A stretch of DNA of 36,356 bases from Candidatus Roizmanbacteria bacterium RIFCSPLOWO2_02_FULL_40_13 (GTDB lineage: Bacteria; Patescibacteriota; Microgenomatia; UBA1406; GWC2-37-13): the NCBI GenBank assembly GCA_001789965.1, contig MGBA01000023.1, forward strand, positions 1-36,356, written 5' to 3'. The notes under the pieces were generated by a model. It worked only from the letters and a program-made list of their open reading frames with translations, searched no databases and was not told the origin of the DNA. Shown in pieces: positions 1-22,896 of the stretch. Every line of letters starts with the position of its first letter. Positions within the stretch are counted from its first letter, which is position 1. The translations under genes were made by a program, and so were the position numbers.

Positions 1-2069
1 AGATAATCTGTCTTTACATATGTTGATTCATTGAGTCTTTCGTATATTGAAAAATAGTCCTGAATATCTATCCACCTGTCGAAAAGCTTGTCATACTGGG
101 GCAGGTCAAAAAGATAATCGAGTTCGTAGTCGCCTAGTTTGGGATCTAGTTTGTAGGCCATATCCGAAATCGTACCGTGAAGTCCTGTTTCCAAACAGTC
201 ATTAAAAAATTCATTATCATAATCGTTGTCTCCATTAATGTCTGATTCCAAAGTGCCTCTTTTTGCAGAGTCTATAAGACGATCAAAGATCTCTTTGTGC
301 TGGGGTTTCACTTTATCCCGCAATCTATTGAGTAATCCGGGAAATGTATTGAAAGCGGTTTCAGTGGCGTCATGTGCAGTATTACGGACCGCTGTACAAG
401 CCTCTGACAGCTGTTGTAGTTCGACGGGTGAAATCTCTGCATCCGTGGCGAATGCACTCCTGGTGAGTGCATGTACGTTTTCGTGAACAAGCGTTGCCCT
501 CAACTGACTCACGCTTGTTGAATCGTCTTGAGGAAGAACCATGTGTATCTCGCGAATATTTCCTACGTAGTAGGGACCATGGTCTTTTTCATCGATGATA
601 AATCTGACGCTCGCCAAGTCACCGTTTGCAAATGCTGCAAGGAGCAGAGGCTCAACATCGGCAACGATCTCTTTTATTTGATCCTTGGCTTTTCCACCTA
701 TATTGCTCCCTTCCTCAAATGTTAGAGTTAATGTCCCGTCGGAAGCAGAAATCTCTGCAAACTGCGCGAGTACTTTTGGATTGTCCTCACCGGGTTCCAA
801 TTTGCGAAGTAGATTGTGAATTTCTTTTGAACCCTCAACGCCGCTCAGATCGATCGACTCACCCGGATTAGTGAGACGATCTATTTCGACTGGCTTTGTT
901 GGGTCAATCCGGATAGCGTTATACTCCTGTACCCATTTTGCTATTTGAGCATCTATGTCATCAATAACTCGTTTAGACTCTTGCTCTAATTCGTTGGAGA
1001 TATCATAGGCTTCAAGATTGTACTGAGAGTATTTGAGAGATTCTTCAGTCTTTCTCCTCCATGCTTCCAGTTCGCCCTTATCAACAAAATCTCTCAGTCT
1101 ACTCCACGGAATTGAGCCGTAGTCCGCATATCCGGTTTTAATTCTATCCTCTATTGCATCCAGCGCGACTTTTCTAATTGCCGGGTCAGAAATTGAAAGC
1201 GCTTGTTGTTGAGCTTTTTGCAAATCTTCATCATATGGATTTAAATTTCTTTCGACTATCGCCGCTGTTATGAGAGTTTCGATTCGTGCTTTGGCAGCAG
1301 GATCTTGGATTAAGTCAAGTAGTTTTAGGGCTCCTTCCTGATCATTTCCGAACTCGATTTTCCCGAGTGCTTGATCTTCTATAAAGATATCTACCGATTT
1401 TTTTGCCTGTCCTTGAATCAGGGGATCCTGAATATCTTCAATCTTTGTAAGAGCGTCTTTCGGCTCCAGTTGTGAAATATTTAGTTCGGATACGACCTCT
1501 GAAACAAGATAAAGATCGACAGATCTCGCAACTCTTTCTTTTAATACAGAATCTGGAATTTTTTCAAGTTGTTTTCGTACTTCTTGCGGCTCGATTGACC
1601 CTACATTGAGATCTTTTAGCGCTTCGTCCAGTGTAGTCAGGCGAACTGCAGTCTTTAAGTCTTCGCGCCACGGCAGGTCCTTATCGATATCATCTACGTG
1701 TTTCTTTATCTCCTCTAAGTCGCCGTAATATATGTCATCTAATACCAAAGATGTTGTGGCCATATCTTCGGATAATTCCTCCGACGTAGGTCTTTGGGGA
1801 CCGGTAGCTGCTGCAACTTCTGGTGAAAGAATTCCTGCTGGAACCACGGTCGAGGCGGCGATAACTACGGGTGCAATTGCTCTATGGATTCTGGATCTTC
1901 GTCTGTGGGAATGTGTGGGTAATGGGTTATCATCTCCATTTGCAAGGGAAGACAACTTGTCTAAAGTTGGTTGAAGAGCTCTTCGAGAACTTAGGTGCTC
2001 CCGGATCTTATGGTGTATGGTGGTAAAATTTCTTCTTCTTGGAGCAAGCTCTGCAGGGCTTTCAGCCAT
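1..2069 (-). CDS. Secreted/membrane-anchored HExxH metallopeptidase-like protein (3' end outside window)
   Basis: An uninterrupted reading frame runs from ATG at 2069 to the window edge, giving 689 residues with no stop, so the C-terminus is missing. Residues 1-60 are basic and probably cytoplasmic. A hydrophobic stretch at about 64-88 (IAPVVIAASTVVPAG, ending in an Ala-rich AAA) could be an anchor or an unusual signal peptide. Residues about 100-330 look all-helical, with degenerate units of about 50 residues ending in an I-x-DP motif. Residues 529-533 read HENVH inside a hydrophobic helix (TLVHENVHALTR), the HExxH signature of zinc peptidases; the third zinc ligand is not obvious. The start is fixed by a consensus promoter 6 nt upstream. 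I do not recognise the family. The peptidase reading is inference from the motif and context. Confidence 0.75.
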   Translation of the reverse strand, partial: MAESPAELAPRRRNFTTIHHKIREHLSSRRALQPTLDKLSSLANGDDNPLPTHSHRRRSRIHRAIAPVVIAASTVVPAGILSPEVAAATGPQRPTSEELSEDMATTSLVLDDIYYGDLEEIKKHVDDIDKDLPWREDLKTAVRLTTLDEALKDLNVGSIEPQEVRKQLEKIPDSVLKERVARSVDLYLVSEVVSELNISQLEPKDALTKIEDIQDPLIQGQAKKSVDIFIEDQALGKIEFGNDQEGALKLLDLIQDPAAKARIETLITAAIVERNLNPYDEDLQKAQQQALSISDPAIRKVALDAIEDRIKTGYADYGSIPWSRLRDFVDKGELEAWRRKTEESLKYSQYNLEAYDISNELEQESKRVIDDIDAQIAKWVQEYNAIRIDPTKPVEIDRLTNPGESIDLSGVEGSKEIHNLLRKLEPGEDNPKVLAQFAEISASDGTLTLTFEEGSNIGGKAKDQIKEIVADVEPLLLAAFANGDLASVRFIIDEKDHGPYYVGNIREIHMVLPQDDSTSVSQLRATLVHENVHALTRSAFATDAEISPVELQQLSEACTAVRNTAHDATETAFNTFPGLLNRLRDKVKPQHKEIFDRLIDSAKRGTLESDINGDNDYDNEFFNDCLETGLHGTISDMAYKLDPKLGDYELDYLFDLPQYDKLFDRWIDIQDYFSIYERLNESTYVKTDY

Positions 2070-2075
2070 ACTATG

Positions 2076-2104
2076 AATATAGTGAAGAAGTCAGATGTAG
2101 TCAA
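2076..2104 (-). promoter_or_regulatory. Sigma70-type promoter, leaderless start for the HENVH gene
   Basis: On the minus strand TTGACT (2104-2099) is followed by a 17-nt spacer and TATATT (2081-2076). Only 6 nt separate the -10 from the ATG, so the transcript should begin at or next to the A of the start codon. Confidence 0.75.
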
Positions 2105-3684: not shown

Positions 3685-3876
3685 TTATTGAAGTAGGTGT
3701 GGAGCGTAGAGTTCTATATTCTGTACAATAGCCGACCGAATAAATGTCATATTTTTTCTTTCTTCTAAGAAATCTCTTGCTTGCTCTACAAATCTTTTGA
3801 TCACGTCTGCAACCGAAAAGTCAGGAAGAGGAATTAAACAGGTCCTGTTGCAGATCCTGCTTTTTTGTCTCTCCAT
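3685..3876 (-). CDS. Possible small protein or frame-shifted tail of the 330-aa gene
   Basis: An open frame of up to 63 codons that overlaps the last 43 nt of the upstream gene in another frame. The part after the upstream stop, roughly from IPLPDFSVADVIKRFVEQAR to the end, looks protein-like (amphipathic helix, then FLEERKNMTFIRSAIVQNIEL). No start codon with a promoter or ribosome binding site is visible. It may be a coupled small gene with a poor start, or the remnant of a longer C-terminus after a frameshift. Low certainty. Confidence 0.3.
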   Translation of the reverse strand: MERQKSRICNRTCLIPLPDFSVADVIKRFVEQARDFLEERKNMTFIRSAIVQNIELYAPHLLQ

Positions 3877-4826
3877 GAGGGATCGTCGGCTTGTCTTTCA
3901 GAATAACCTTTAGCGTCATTATAATTCAAGCTCCTCCATTCCTTCCCAGATGTATCTATAAACGCATTTGTTCCCGGTCGTCTTGGCGCGCTTCCTCCAT
4001 TTGCTTCATTCCTGGATTGCTCGATTTGATCCCATCTTTGATCTTTTGCCAAACCTTGCAGGATCTCGAGGATTTCTTTTGGATCTTTTGCATATAAAAC
4101 GATCCGTGGATGTTCAGGTTTCAAATTATCATAACCACCAATGTCTTGCAACATCGCCTCTTCGCTCGTTGCCCGGGCAATCATCTCCCTTATTTCTGAA
4201 CTTAAAAGCCATTTAAACATTGTGGTTTTTCCGGTTTGCAGCCTATCGTGTGCTATTTTTGCAAGCGCATCCAGAGCCTGTGGGAAATCCTGAGGTTCTG
4301 CCATAAGATATCCTCTATAAAGATCTGCGTCATGCTCTCCAAGGTCTTCACCATATCTAACCTGCTGCCAATATGCGTTTCCCTTAACGTCAACGAGGGC
4401 TTCTTGCGATAAATCTTGCTCCTTTGCCTTAGTAAACTTATCTCTTAGCTTGATTGTTTGTTCCTGTAAATCATCCTCGGGCGACCTTTGCAGATCTCTA
4501 AATTCATCAATGCTTATCTTTTTTTTCAATGTCCTACCTTCTGCATCCGTTTTAACCACTTTCACTTTTCCATCTTCGGCGCTAATTAGAGTCCAATCAT
4601 CTTCAACTTCGCCACTTGTTCGTCTTATTGTTATCTTGTCACCTACCTTATACCCTTCTAAGCCTTCTGCCAGATCTTTGAGCTGGACTCTTGGATCTCC
4701 GGAGGGATGAAGTGTAATTTTAATATCATCGTCTTCCCTTGTTAAATCAATTCGTTTTTCTTTTGGAGGAGGAGTAGGTTTTTTTTCACGACGCAATATC
4801 TTAGGTAGTTCTTTAAGAAGATTCAT
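3834..4826 (-). CDS. Hypothetical protein, SH3-like N-domain plus helical C-domain
   Basis: 330 residues, soluble, no signal peptide or membrane segment. After a basic, Pro-rich N-terminus (KPTPPPKEKRIDL), residues about 50-115 form a likely beta-barrel with the pattern GYKVGDKITIRRTSGEVEDD and a following K/V-alternating stretch. Residues about 160-270 are helical and include FPQALDALAKIAHDRL and RIVLYAKDPKEILEILQGLA. The C-terminal 60 residues are polar and probably disordered. I do not recognise a named family. A TATAAT lies only 2 nt before the ATG, too close for a leaderless start at that codon; TTGACA at 4863-4858 with a 17-nt spacer to a weak CATTCT would place the start near the ATG. 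Confidence 0.7.
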   Translation of the reverse strand: MNLLKELPKILRREKKPTPPPKEKRIDLTREDDDIKITLHPSGDPRVQLKDLAEGLEGYKVGDKITIRRTSGEVEDDWTLISAEDGKVKVVKTDAEGRTLKKKISIDEFRDLQRSPEDDLQEQTIKLRDKFTKAKEQDLSQEALVDVKGNAYWQQVRYGEDLGEHDADLYRGYLMAEPQDFPQALDALAKIAHDRLQTGKTTMFKWLLSSEIREMIARATSEEAMLQDIGGYDNLKPEHPRIVLYAKDPKEILEILQGLAKDQRWDQIEQSRNEANGGSAPRRPGTNAFIDTSGKEWRSLNYNDAKGYSERQADDPSWRDKKAGSATGPV

Positions 4827-14237: not shown

Positions 14238-14885
14238 TCAAAATCTAAGTAAAAATTTCAGTGCTCCACCCACTAATACCAAAAGTATTCCGGGCAGCGC
14301 AACCTTGATGATATTGTCTAAAATTCCTGTTTGGGGAAGTTCATCCGGTACCGCAGATGGCGTAGATGTCGGTAATATCGCGCTTCCGCCAACCGTTACG
14401 GCTGCCGTACCATTAGAACTACAGGTAATCACATTAGTAGCATTAATATCGTTTTTTATAACCTGCGAATTCTCGGTGCTTTCGTCACAGCTATAACTCA
14501 GGGTTACTGTTCCTGCTTTAAGCGCAGTAAAACTGATCGTGCCAACGGTGCCTGATCCGGTTTTTGAGGTTGCCGGATCGTCTACAAGACCTGCCACGTA
14601 TACCCGTTGAGAATTTATATCATTTAGAACTGTCGGAAAGTACGTACCTTCAGATACGGTTCCCGCCTCAAGAACATCTGAATCGTACAGAACGTATGCA
14701 TCAATGGAAGTAATGGAGTCTGAACCGGCATCCACGACAACCCCGATATCAAAACTCTCTCCTGCGTTTACGTTGACGGTGGTTTGGTCAAATTTGAGCG
14801 ATGCTGCTTGTGCGCTGGATGCAGAAACAACGAGGAAAAAAAGAAGACTTAGAACTACAGAAAGATACGATGCGTACTTTTTCAT
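14238..14885 (-). CDS. LPQTG-anchored cohesin-domain surface protein
   Basis: 215 residues. Signal peptide 1-27 (hydrophobic core, cleavage after AQA). Residues 29-165 form a cohesin-like beta sandwich (FDQTTVNVNAGESFDIGVVV, then AYVLYDSDVL, GTVGTISFTALKAGTVTLSY). The end is a sortase-type signal: LPQTG at 183-187, hydrophobic segment, and a basic end (KFLLRF). Cohesins bind dockerins, and the neighbouring gene 15571-16998 carries a dockerin. No sortase gene is in the window. GATAAT lies 8 nt before the ATG. Confidence 0.85.
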   Translation of the reverse strand: MKKYASYLSVVLSLLFFLVVSASSAQAASLKFDQTTVNVNAGESFDIGVVVDAGSDSITSIDAYVLYDSDVLEAGTVSEGTYFPTVLNDINSQRVYVAGLVDDPATSKTGSGTVGTISFTALKAGTVTLSYSCDESTENSQVIKNDINATNVITCSSNGTAAVTVGGSAILPTSTPSAVPDELPQTGILDNIIKVALPGILLVLVGGALKFLLRF

Positions 14886-15570: not shown

Positions 15571-16998
15571 TTATTTTAATGGGTCATCGGTTTTAATTGA
15601 CAACGCTGCTATCACTAATGAGAAATCCTGAGAATCTATGATGCCGTTGAGATTTACATCGCCAATTTTTAGATCGTCTGCGTCTGTACTGGTTAAGTTT
15701 TGTCGGATAAACGAAACGTCATTGGAATCAACGACTCCGTCCTGCTCGGGTAGATCACCGACGAGAAGAAGAATCTTTGAAAAATCTAGAGTGTTTTCTC
15801 CTGCCTTAAGGGTGATCGCAGCGTTTTGACAACTAAATATCCCTCCCTGTGTTTCTGTCGGAGAAGCCACGCAGATTTTCTTTTGAATATGTTTTGGGCC
15901 TTTCACAAATACTGAGACTGGTGTCCCGATCGGTGCCTTTGCAAGAGTAACTTTTCCTGTCCACGCTCCTTCGGCATCAGAAGTAAAATCACCAGTTCCG
16001 GATACAGACTCTGACAGACTGACTTTTACTTTCAGATTGTTAAATTGACTCGATGGTTGTTTTACTACACCTTGGAATTTTAATTTTAAGTTCAGCGTTA
16101 CGCTACCTGTCTGTCCGCCTGTTGCCGGTGCTGCGGTTGGAGCTTTTGCCGTGGGCGCTGGTGCCGCAGGTGCGCCACCGCCAGTCGTTCCTCCACCTCC
16201 ACCAGTTCCCCCACCTCCAGTAGTTCCGCCTGTGCTCCCAGCGGGTTTTACACAACACGATTTTCCACCCCAACATAGGCCCCCACCAGTTTTAACCTTT
16301 CCAGTTGGCGCACAATCATTAAGACATGTCCCTCCTGCATTTTTACATGCTGAAGATTGAACTAACTTACAGCAAGTAGACCCGCCTCCGCAGTTCTGAT
16401 TTCCTGCACTCTCTTTCCCATCAGGACATCTTCCGGAATAACATGCTGACTCGCCTAAGTTCTTACATGCATCTGATGTCTTAGGAGCAGGAACAGGATC
16501 CCTCTGATTTCCGCTCTTATCCGTTCCCTCTTTACCTTCAGGCTGACAACAAATCAAGCCGGATGCACAATTGCCATTACCGATACTTTGTCCTGAACAT
16601 TTTTTAGTTTTCGAAAGACAAACTCCACTCAGACCTCCTGCCGAACACCCAGACCCTTCTGTATTTTTTGGCACGATACATGAAGTAAATGATGAATTAT
16701 ATGTTGTTCCGGCTGGACAACCGCAGTAGTGATTAGTTCCAACTTTTTTACCTAGAATATAAACATCTCTTACAACATTGCAATTATATTTAGCGCCGCA
16801 CGATTCTTGGAAAATTGTTACTCCTCCTCGTACTTGTTTACACAGATCCTTTATCGAAGCGGCATGAGTTTTATACACTTGTTGTTGTTGGACTACTGCA
16901 ACGGATGACAAAAGAAGCGCGAGGAAAAGAAAGCTGAAAATTATGGTGAAGATTTTGTGTCTTTTGAAAAGACTTTGTGATGGATCGTTATTGGCCAT
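15571..16998 (-). CDS. Secreted Cys-rich protein with C-terminal dockerin
   Basis: 475 residues. N-terminal signal/anchor at about 15-37, then about 200 residues of Cys-rich repeats, several ending in a CC pair (GLICCQPEG, STCCKLV, KSCCVKP) at intervals of about 50. A low-complexity Gly/Thr then Ala/Pro/Thr linker follows, then a beta-sandwich of the carboxypeptidase-regulatory type (SVTLNLKLKFQG, GAWTGKVTLAKAPIGT). The end has two dockerin-I repeats, GDLPEQDGVVDSNDVSF (from 414) and GDVNLNGIIDSQDFSL (from 446), with Asp/Asn calcium ligands. Probably exported and bound to the neighbouring cohesins. The Cys content fits with the dsbB-like gene. Confidence 0.8.
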   Translation of the reverse strand: MANNDPSQSLFKRHKIFTIIFSFLFLALLLSSVAVVQQQQVYKTHAASIKDLCKQVRGGVTIFQESCGAKYNCNVVRDVYILGKKVGTNHYCGCPAGTTYNSSFTSCIVPKNTEGSGCSAGGLSGVCLSKTKKCSGQSIGNGNCASGLICCQPEGKEGTDKSGNQRDPVPAPKTSDACKNLGESACYSGRCPDGKESAGNQNCGGGSTCCKLVQSSACKNAGGTCLNDCAPTGKVKTGGGLCWGGKSCCVKPAGSTGGTTGGGGTGGGGGTTGGGAPAAPAPTAKAPTAAPATGGQTGSVTLNLKLKFQGVVKQPSSQFNNLKVKVSLSESVSGTGDFTSDAEGAWTGKVTLAKAPIGTPVSVFVKGPKHIQKKICVASPTETQGGIFSCQNAAITLKAGENTLDFSKILLLVGDLPEQDGVVDSNDVSFIRQNLTSTDADDLKIGDVNLNGIIDSQDFSLVIAALSIKTDDPLK

Positions 16999-21822: not shown

Positions 21823-22896
21823 TCAGAAATAGCCAAAGGCCCAGAAGCCAATAGAGCCGATACCGTTTTCTTTTAAAAACTCCGTTTTCTGTCGGACGGA
21901 TTCCTCATCTTCAAACCAGATGATGTGATATACATCATTTTCGACGTAATTAATCTCGTTTTCCGTTGATTCTTTGTCACGAAACGGAACACAGTTTGTC
22001 TTTCCGCATTTATCAAGATATGTATTTTTTATCTGATTGAGACTTAGAGCTTTGGCCTGTCGTATCGGTCTTTTTTTCTCATCCACGATCCAGTCGTATC
22101 CATACATACCAAACAGAACCGTTAATTTTTCGGGCTCTATAAACTTCTTGTAGTCGCCTATCATGCTCGCAAAATCGTAGCCGAATTTTTTCCCTCCAGA
22201 AAGAGGAAAATTAGGTCCCGGCTCCCCGATACTTTTGTGAAGATCGTATGCCATAACCATAATTTCATCTGTATGCTTTCCCAGAAAATCCAGATCATAC
22301 GGTCGCTGTCGGAAATATACATCTCCATATATGGTCATTGCAAAATGAAGGTTGTTGTTTTTTGCCTCACTGTAGAAATTCTCTACGAAGATATTGATAT
22401 TTCCCGGGACAGAGTCGTCGAAAAGACTAAAAAGTTCAAAATCAAATACGATTCCGTTGAAACCGTTTTCAGTTGCTATCGAGATTGAATCCTTGATGAT
22501 ACTCTGCTGGGCTTCTTTATTTTTCAGTATGCCGAGGTTCGCCGAAGAGTTGGTCATCTTTACTGTCAGAAGTTTTTTTGCACTTGGAGGAACACTTTCT
22601 ATAAAATTCTCAATGTTGTTATAGGCTTCGTCATCGGTAACTATCCCCCCGCTGCCACCCGTTACCCCAAAGTAAATAAAGCGGTCGTACTGCGCAGAGG
22701 ATAGCGACTCATCAAGTGTCCACGATGGTACGAATATTGATCTTTGGGAAATCTGAACGGGACTTCCTGCTATTTGAACGGACGGCTTTTTGAGCGGTAA
22801 TAGTGTCGGAGATTTTTCCTTTTGGACCTGAAGAAGAAGATATCCAAAGCCGGCGCAGAACAGAATAAAAGCAATAAGAAGTCTCAACTTCCTCAT
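21823..22896 (-). CDS. Membrane-anchored GH18-like glycosidase
   Basis: 357 residues. N-terminal membrane anchor at about 5-23, Pro-rich linker, then a GH18-type (beta/alpha)8 domain: FIYFGVTG, NGFNGIVFDFELF with DFE at 152-154 (Glu154 as the general acid), HTDEIMVMAYDLHK, and the final strand IGSIGFWAFGYF. In the family signature DGxDxDxE the first Asp is replaced (NGIVFDFE), as in some spore-germination-type and inactive members. It likely cuts or binds a GlcNAc-containing surface glycan. It starts 7 nt after the aspartokinase stop and is likely co-transcribed. Confidence 0.8.
   Translation of the reverse strand: MRKLRLLIAFILFCAGFGYLLLQVQKEKSPTLLPLKKPSVQIAGSPVQISQRSIFVPSWTLDESLSSAQYDRFIYFGVTGGSGGIVTDDEAYNNIENFIESVPPSAKKLLTVKMTNSSANLGILKNKEAQQSIIKDSISIATENGFNGIVFDFELFSLFDDSVPGNINIFVENFYSEAKNNNLHFAMTIYGDVYFRQRPYDLDFLGKHTDEIMVMAYDLHKSIGEPGPNFPLSGGKKFGYDFASMIGDYKKFIEPEKLTVLFGMYGYDWIVDEKKRPIRQAKALSLNQIKNTYLDKCGKTNCVPFRDKESTENEINYVENDVYHIIWFEDEESVRQKTEFLKENGIGSIGFWAFGYF

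Follow-up and report, generated by a model that had tools for sequence, protein, structure and literature searches.

The window analysed here, a stretch of 36,356 bases, is contig C23 of a Candidatus Roizmanbacteria genome of 925,264 bases in 25 contigs. Its low end is occupied by a minus-strand open frame (3-2069; 689 aa), which starts with an ATG at 2069 and is still open where the window ends. ORF analysis bears out the long open frame described in the initial annotation, with 689 codons, and the C-terminus that was missing there was recovered on contig C12 by means of an exact 71-base overlap. The overlapping bases are found at both contig ends on opposite strands, and the genome has just these two copies. 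On C12 the frame extends by 81 residues up to a stop, which yields a protein of 770 aa. In the window the gene is preceded by purD, and an SPFH/Band 7 protein is encoded next on C12. Two genes upstream, a 330-aa protein without a Pfam match is encoded (3834-4826, minus strand). The features of the gene, here called the orphan gene, and of its upstream region are the following.

1..71, minus strand: contig end identical to G000:C12:1-71 (exact 71-base overlap), linking the gene to its C-terminus
3..2069, minus strand: orphan ORF, coding for residues 1-689 of 770; the remaining 81 are encoded at G000:C12:72-315
195..398, minus strand: span between C558 (396-398) and C625 (195-197), the sole cysteines and both after HENVH; possible disulfide
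207..242, minus strand: acidic loop DINGDNDYDNEF, residues 610-621; possible Ca2+ site
402..404, minus strand: E556, within LSEACTA; a candidate for the third ligand, located 22 residues past H533; in helix 548-562 of the full-frame model
471..485, minus strand: HENVH, residues 529-533, putative zinc-binding/catalytic motif; inside a helix in both low-confidence models
534..578, minus strand: GPYYVGNIREIHMVL, residues 498-512; possible zincin edge strand
591..608, minus strand: VRFIID, residues 488-493; putative strand-like segment ahead of HENVH
1110..1718, minus strand: about five 42-residue helix-hairpin repeats, residues about 118-320; from self-match, with helices in the low-confidence model
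1806..1880, minus strand: hydrophobic segment ending VAAA, residues 64-88, probable signal peptide or anchor; from hydropathy, with a putative cleavage site
1884..2069, minus strand: basic N-terminal tail, residues 1-62 (12 R/K, 6 H, 6 D/E)
2076..2081, minus strand: -10-like hexamer TATATT, 17-base spacer, 6 bases before the ATG, leaderless geometry; from a promoter scan
2099..2104, minus strand: -35-like hexamer TTGACT; from a promoter scan

The promoter arrangement TTGACT-17-TATATT-6-ATG (2104..2076) is, taken alone, within chance, as the region holds 3 promoter-like sites compared to 5.2 expected. With its -10 box 6 bases before the start codon and no Shine-Dalgarno sequence, the orphan gene has the layout of a leaderless gene, and owing to this position of the -10 box a transcript would start at or beside the A of the ATG. 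The same geometry was counted in 49 ORFs that span 150 or more codons when measured from their first ATG, taken from the window (1-36356) and from 20 kb of C12 (L023:1-20000). Hereby, a -10-like hexamer stands exactly 6 bases before the ATG in 9 of the 49 ORFs, whereas the 53 other offsets average 0.70 (binomial P of 3e-8, or 1.6e-6 when corrected for 54 offsets), and a Shine-Dalgarno-like word is present in 3 of the 49 only. Judged by these counts, the genome seems to use leaderless starts frequently. Loss of the anti-Shine-Dalgarno sequence as their cause is ruled out, since the 3' end of the 16S rRNA reads CACCTCCTTT and is intact. The leaderless consensus promoter proposed in the initial annotation is thus real as a sequence, but it is a habit of the genome and not special to the orphan gene; because the 6-base geometry recurs far above chance in the ORFs examined, the promoter is uninformative about this gene specifically. 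A -10 box 6 bases before the ATG is useful for gene-start calling in this genome. Leaderless starts are given for 21.6% of bacterial species in the accessible part of a published paper (PMC9581028). In the literature searched, as far as its text was accessible, we found no report of leaderless genes in Patescibacteria, which is not proof of their absence.

At the N-terminus, the hydrophobic segment described earlier is confirmed at residues 64-88, with a best 19-residue Kyte-Doolittle mean of 1.96 at residue 64. Its end, EVAAATG, is a plausible signal-peptidase site by the general rule for such sites. The N-region ahead of the segment comprises 62 residues and is unusually long for exported proteins. 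We infer that the orphan protein is exported and perhaps anchored, whereby the basic tail and the hydrophobic segment would direct it out of the cell. The residues after 88 are highly acidic, with a net charge of -54. Within this region, the proposed helical repeats with I-x-DP endings hold up as repeats: at a period of 42 the best ungapped 24-residue self-match scores 47 compared to a shuffle maximum of 37, and 0 of 100 shuffles are as good. The endings, however, occur in proper form in three copies only (IQDP at 213, IQDP at 254 and ISDP at 293), the fourth being IPDS at 171. Together with a coiled linker (about residues 330-390), the about five helical hairpins of 42 residues each may serve as a scaffold or stalk.

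Searches of family and structure collections returned no peptidase. In Pfam, at E up to 10, no peptidase family was found for the 689 aa, the 366-aa domain or the 104-aa C-terminal piece, the matches being just two non-peptidase names with E 0.12 and 0.15. NCBIfam gave 0 families for the 689 aa, PHROGs one unknown family only (E 0.48), and the PDB sequences one chance-level match (E 0.28), with none for the catalytic part. The earlier statement that no known peptidase family is evident is therefore upheld by Pfam, NCBIfam and PHROGs (E up to 10) and by the PDB sequences, and in the suggested HMM search none of the gluzincin families matched in Pfam.

Searches of genomes gave a corresponding picture. 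Among 96 genomes the 689-aa frame matched in its own genome only. The 366-aa catalytic part was searched in 372 genomes of the class and 379 of the phylum, and the genome searches jointly cover 745 other sampled genomes of the phylum. Both searches with the 366-aa part returned the gene itself plus weak matches only, in 6 other genomes at class level (E 0.012-0.113) and in 10 at phylum level (E 0.011-0.086). Three of the class-level matches (L007, L008, L009) were rejected as relatives, two of them resembling polynucleotide phosphorylase and one lying in a glycosyltransferase-like frame. Likewise rejected were five phylum-level matches (L014, L016, L017, L019, L022), none of which resembles such a peptidase, and four further weak matches (L010, L011, L013, L015) contain stops within the match. 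Genome contigs (two scans), viral contigs, plasmids and phages contained no relative. At the level of the order, 83 genomes were scanned with a DNA pattern modelled on the glutamate helix of the C-terminus. Four of them matched: in the gene itself, in two places with in-frame stops and in one other, presumably a glycyl-tRNA synthetase. The neighbouring SPFH gene was matched in 21 of 56 genomes, its own included. Of the SPFH orthologues in the 20 other genomes, the four closest among those examined are not flanked by a large HExxH frame. In its own genome no paralogue of the orphan N-terminus or of the repeats was found, the one match (E 0.08) being a chance match with stops. Nearby on contig C12, another protein of 773 aa (L023:3062-5383, plus strand) has a proline-rich N-terminus, MVDIAPELRPRPP, which loosely resembles the MAESPAELAPRRR of the orphan; it is absent from the results of the own-genome searches with the orphan protein.

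In everything searched, the gene is an orphan. According to the accessible part of the AGNOSTOS study, orphan status is common in Patescibacteria, for which 45,788 species-level lineage-specific unknown clusters are given (PMC9132574). Like the species-restricted unknowns described there, the orphan gene is confined to one genome, but unlike them, as far as that text describes them, it has a recognisable active-site motif. A precedent for a new protease among hypothetical proteins of the Candidate Phyla Radiation (CPR) is CPR-C4, which the available text reports as highly conserved in CPR and remotely vasohibin-like (PMC9108980). In contrast to CPR-C4 as presented there, the gene analysed here is an orphan and carries an HExxH.

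This motif, HENVH at residues 529-533, is confirmed as originally annotated (window 471-485). Taken by itself, an HExxH carries little weight, as 117 of 5000 shuffled versions of the 770-aa protein contain one. When hydrophobic residues must precede the HExxH and a small or hydrophobic residue must follow it, 8 of 5000 shuffles qualify. Among the 35 other ORFs of the window, an HExxH is present in two, which both encode true metalloenzymes, namely an M50 peptidase and a peptide deformylase. Ahead of HENVH, VRFIID and GPYYVGNIREIHMVL resemble the strand-turn-strand preceding the active-site helix of zincins. Alternatively, HENVH may have arisen by chance in an unrelated exported orphan that consists mainly of helices. 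While the frequency of HExxH in the composition shuffles, the lack of relatives and the helix-dominated low-confidence models are in line with this reading, it is countered by the rarity of the hydrophobic framing and by the strand-like segments before and the E-A-x-[ST]/E-x-x-A stretches after HENVH, which suit a zincin. We consider a chance motif rather unlikely.

Structure models were obtained with AlphaFold2, with no alignment, for a 285-residue domain piece and for the 689-aa frame; neither model has residues 690-770. Hereby, the domain piece reached a mean pLDDT of 42.3 and a pTM of 0.30 and the 689-aa frame 41.6 and 0.22, so that both are unusable for the fold. A low-confidence helix surrounds HENVH in each (518-541 in the full model, 115-137 in the domain model), and the strand-like segments ahead of it appear as strand only at residues 489-491 in the domain model and not in the full model. 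The models, with a mean pLDDT of ~42, are helix-dominated and too poor to position E556, E701 and E704. The fold prediction suggested for finding a third zinc ligand thus returned HENVH as helical in both models but placed no ligand; because of the mean pLDDT of ~42, a model without a third ligand was neither obtained nor excluded.

Candidates for this ligand are found in two places of the protein. Besides E556, these are E701/E704 in SRDEAGELVAS, located 167-170 residues past H533 in the part derived from C12. The candidate glutamates stand in E-A-x-[ST] or E-x-x-A contexts, at +22 and +167/+170. In the short-spaced gluzincins (thermolysin-like M4, M1, M2, M3) a helical HExxH is followed about 18-24 residues on by a Glu within E-[GA]-x-[AST], and gluzincins usually have a short HExxH-to-Glu distance. 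The orphan is like these families in its HExxH in a predicted helix with E556 at 22 residues, but unlike them it has no Pfam match and no family motif beyond HExxH, and its N-terminal repeats are unrelated. MtfA (M90), in turn, is a gluzincin in which the third ligand lies further downstream. With MtfA the orphan would share an HExxH and a later glutamate helix of the E-x-x-E/A type (E701/E704). It differs from MtfA in that it has no Pfam match and in that its spacing would be 167-170 residues, which to our knowledge is longer than in any gluzincin. Since the short spacing is usual for gluzincins, we lean slightly towards E556 over E701/E704 as third ligand.

If the distant glutamates were used instead, the protein could found a separate zincin family. 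Its HExxH would be split from E701 or E704 by a helical insert of ~165 residues that includes a disulfide pair as well as an acidic loop with a possible calcium-binding role. Carried by a stalk of helical repeats on the outside of an epibiotic bacterium, the protein would cut host surface proteins. We regard this elaborate picture as unlikely. The acidic loop DINGDNDYDNEF is ruled out as a dockerin, since its loop position 12 is F.

Elsewhere in the window, a Pfam cohesin domain (E 1.2e-5) is encoded at 14238-14885 (minus strand), and two ORFs from it, at 15571-16998 (minus strand), a protein that has 26 cysteines and a dockerin type I domain (E 2.9e-6). By their domain assignments, the two proteins may possibly form a cohesin-dockerin pair on the cell surface. 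At 21823-22896 (minus strand), a glycosyl hydrolase family 18 domain follows a hydrophobic N-terminus.

The initial annotation had proposed a surface zinc peptidase or a structural relative. An exported zinc peptidase is plausible in view of the HExxH in a predicted helix, the strand-like segments before it and the two Glu stretches. Action on host or own surface proteins, also suggested there, is conjectural. Structural relatives enter here as a second alternative, according to which the orphan serves as a surface or adhesion protein, exported and built on helical repeats, and retains a zincin-like fold but not the activity. Inactive zincin relatives often lose the catalytic-type glutamate. 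In the orphan the HExxH is complete, with this glutamate included, which argues against a non-peptidase even though the long acidic repeat region, the lack of a family match and the fact that both third-ligand options remain candidates would suit one; we consider it decidedly improbable. Our preferred reading, to which we assign a probability of about 0.6, is that the orphan is a lineage-specific exported metallopeptidase of the zincin, most likely gluzincin, type on a helical-repeat scaffold. In its favour are the hydrophobic framing of HENVH, the two true metalloenzymes as the only other HExxH proteins among the 35 ORFs, the low-confidence helix with strand-like segments ahead, the candidate glutamates, the hydrophobic export segment, the recovered C-terminus and the acidic mature part with both cysteines behind HENVH. 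Against it stand the lack of a peptidase-family match (E up to 10), of a PDB sequence relative and of any homologue in the searches, the unusable models and the frequency of a bare HExxH in shuffles. In such a metallopeptidase, the C-terminal half (about residues 405-770) would bind one Zn2+ via H529, H533 and a glutamate of a later helix (E556, or E701/E704). E530 would then activate a water molecule, leading to peptide-bond cleavage in extracellular proteins or in proteins of the cell's own surface.

As it stands, the orphan joins a very large number of unknown genes that are each confined to a single genome of such bacteria, and the gain is modest. Should it prove active as a peptidase, it would be the seed of a new zincin family and a testable candidate for how a bacterium with a reduced genome acts on proteins outside its cell.
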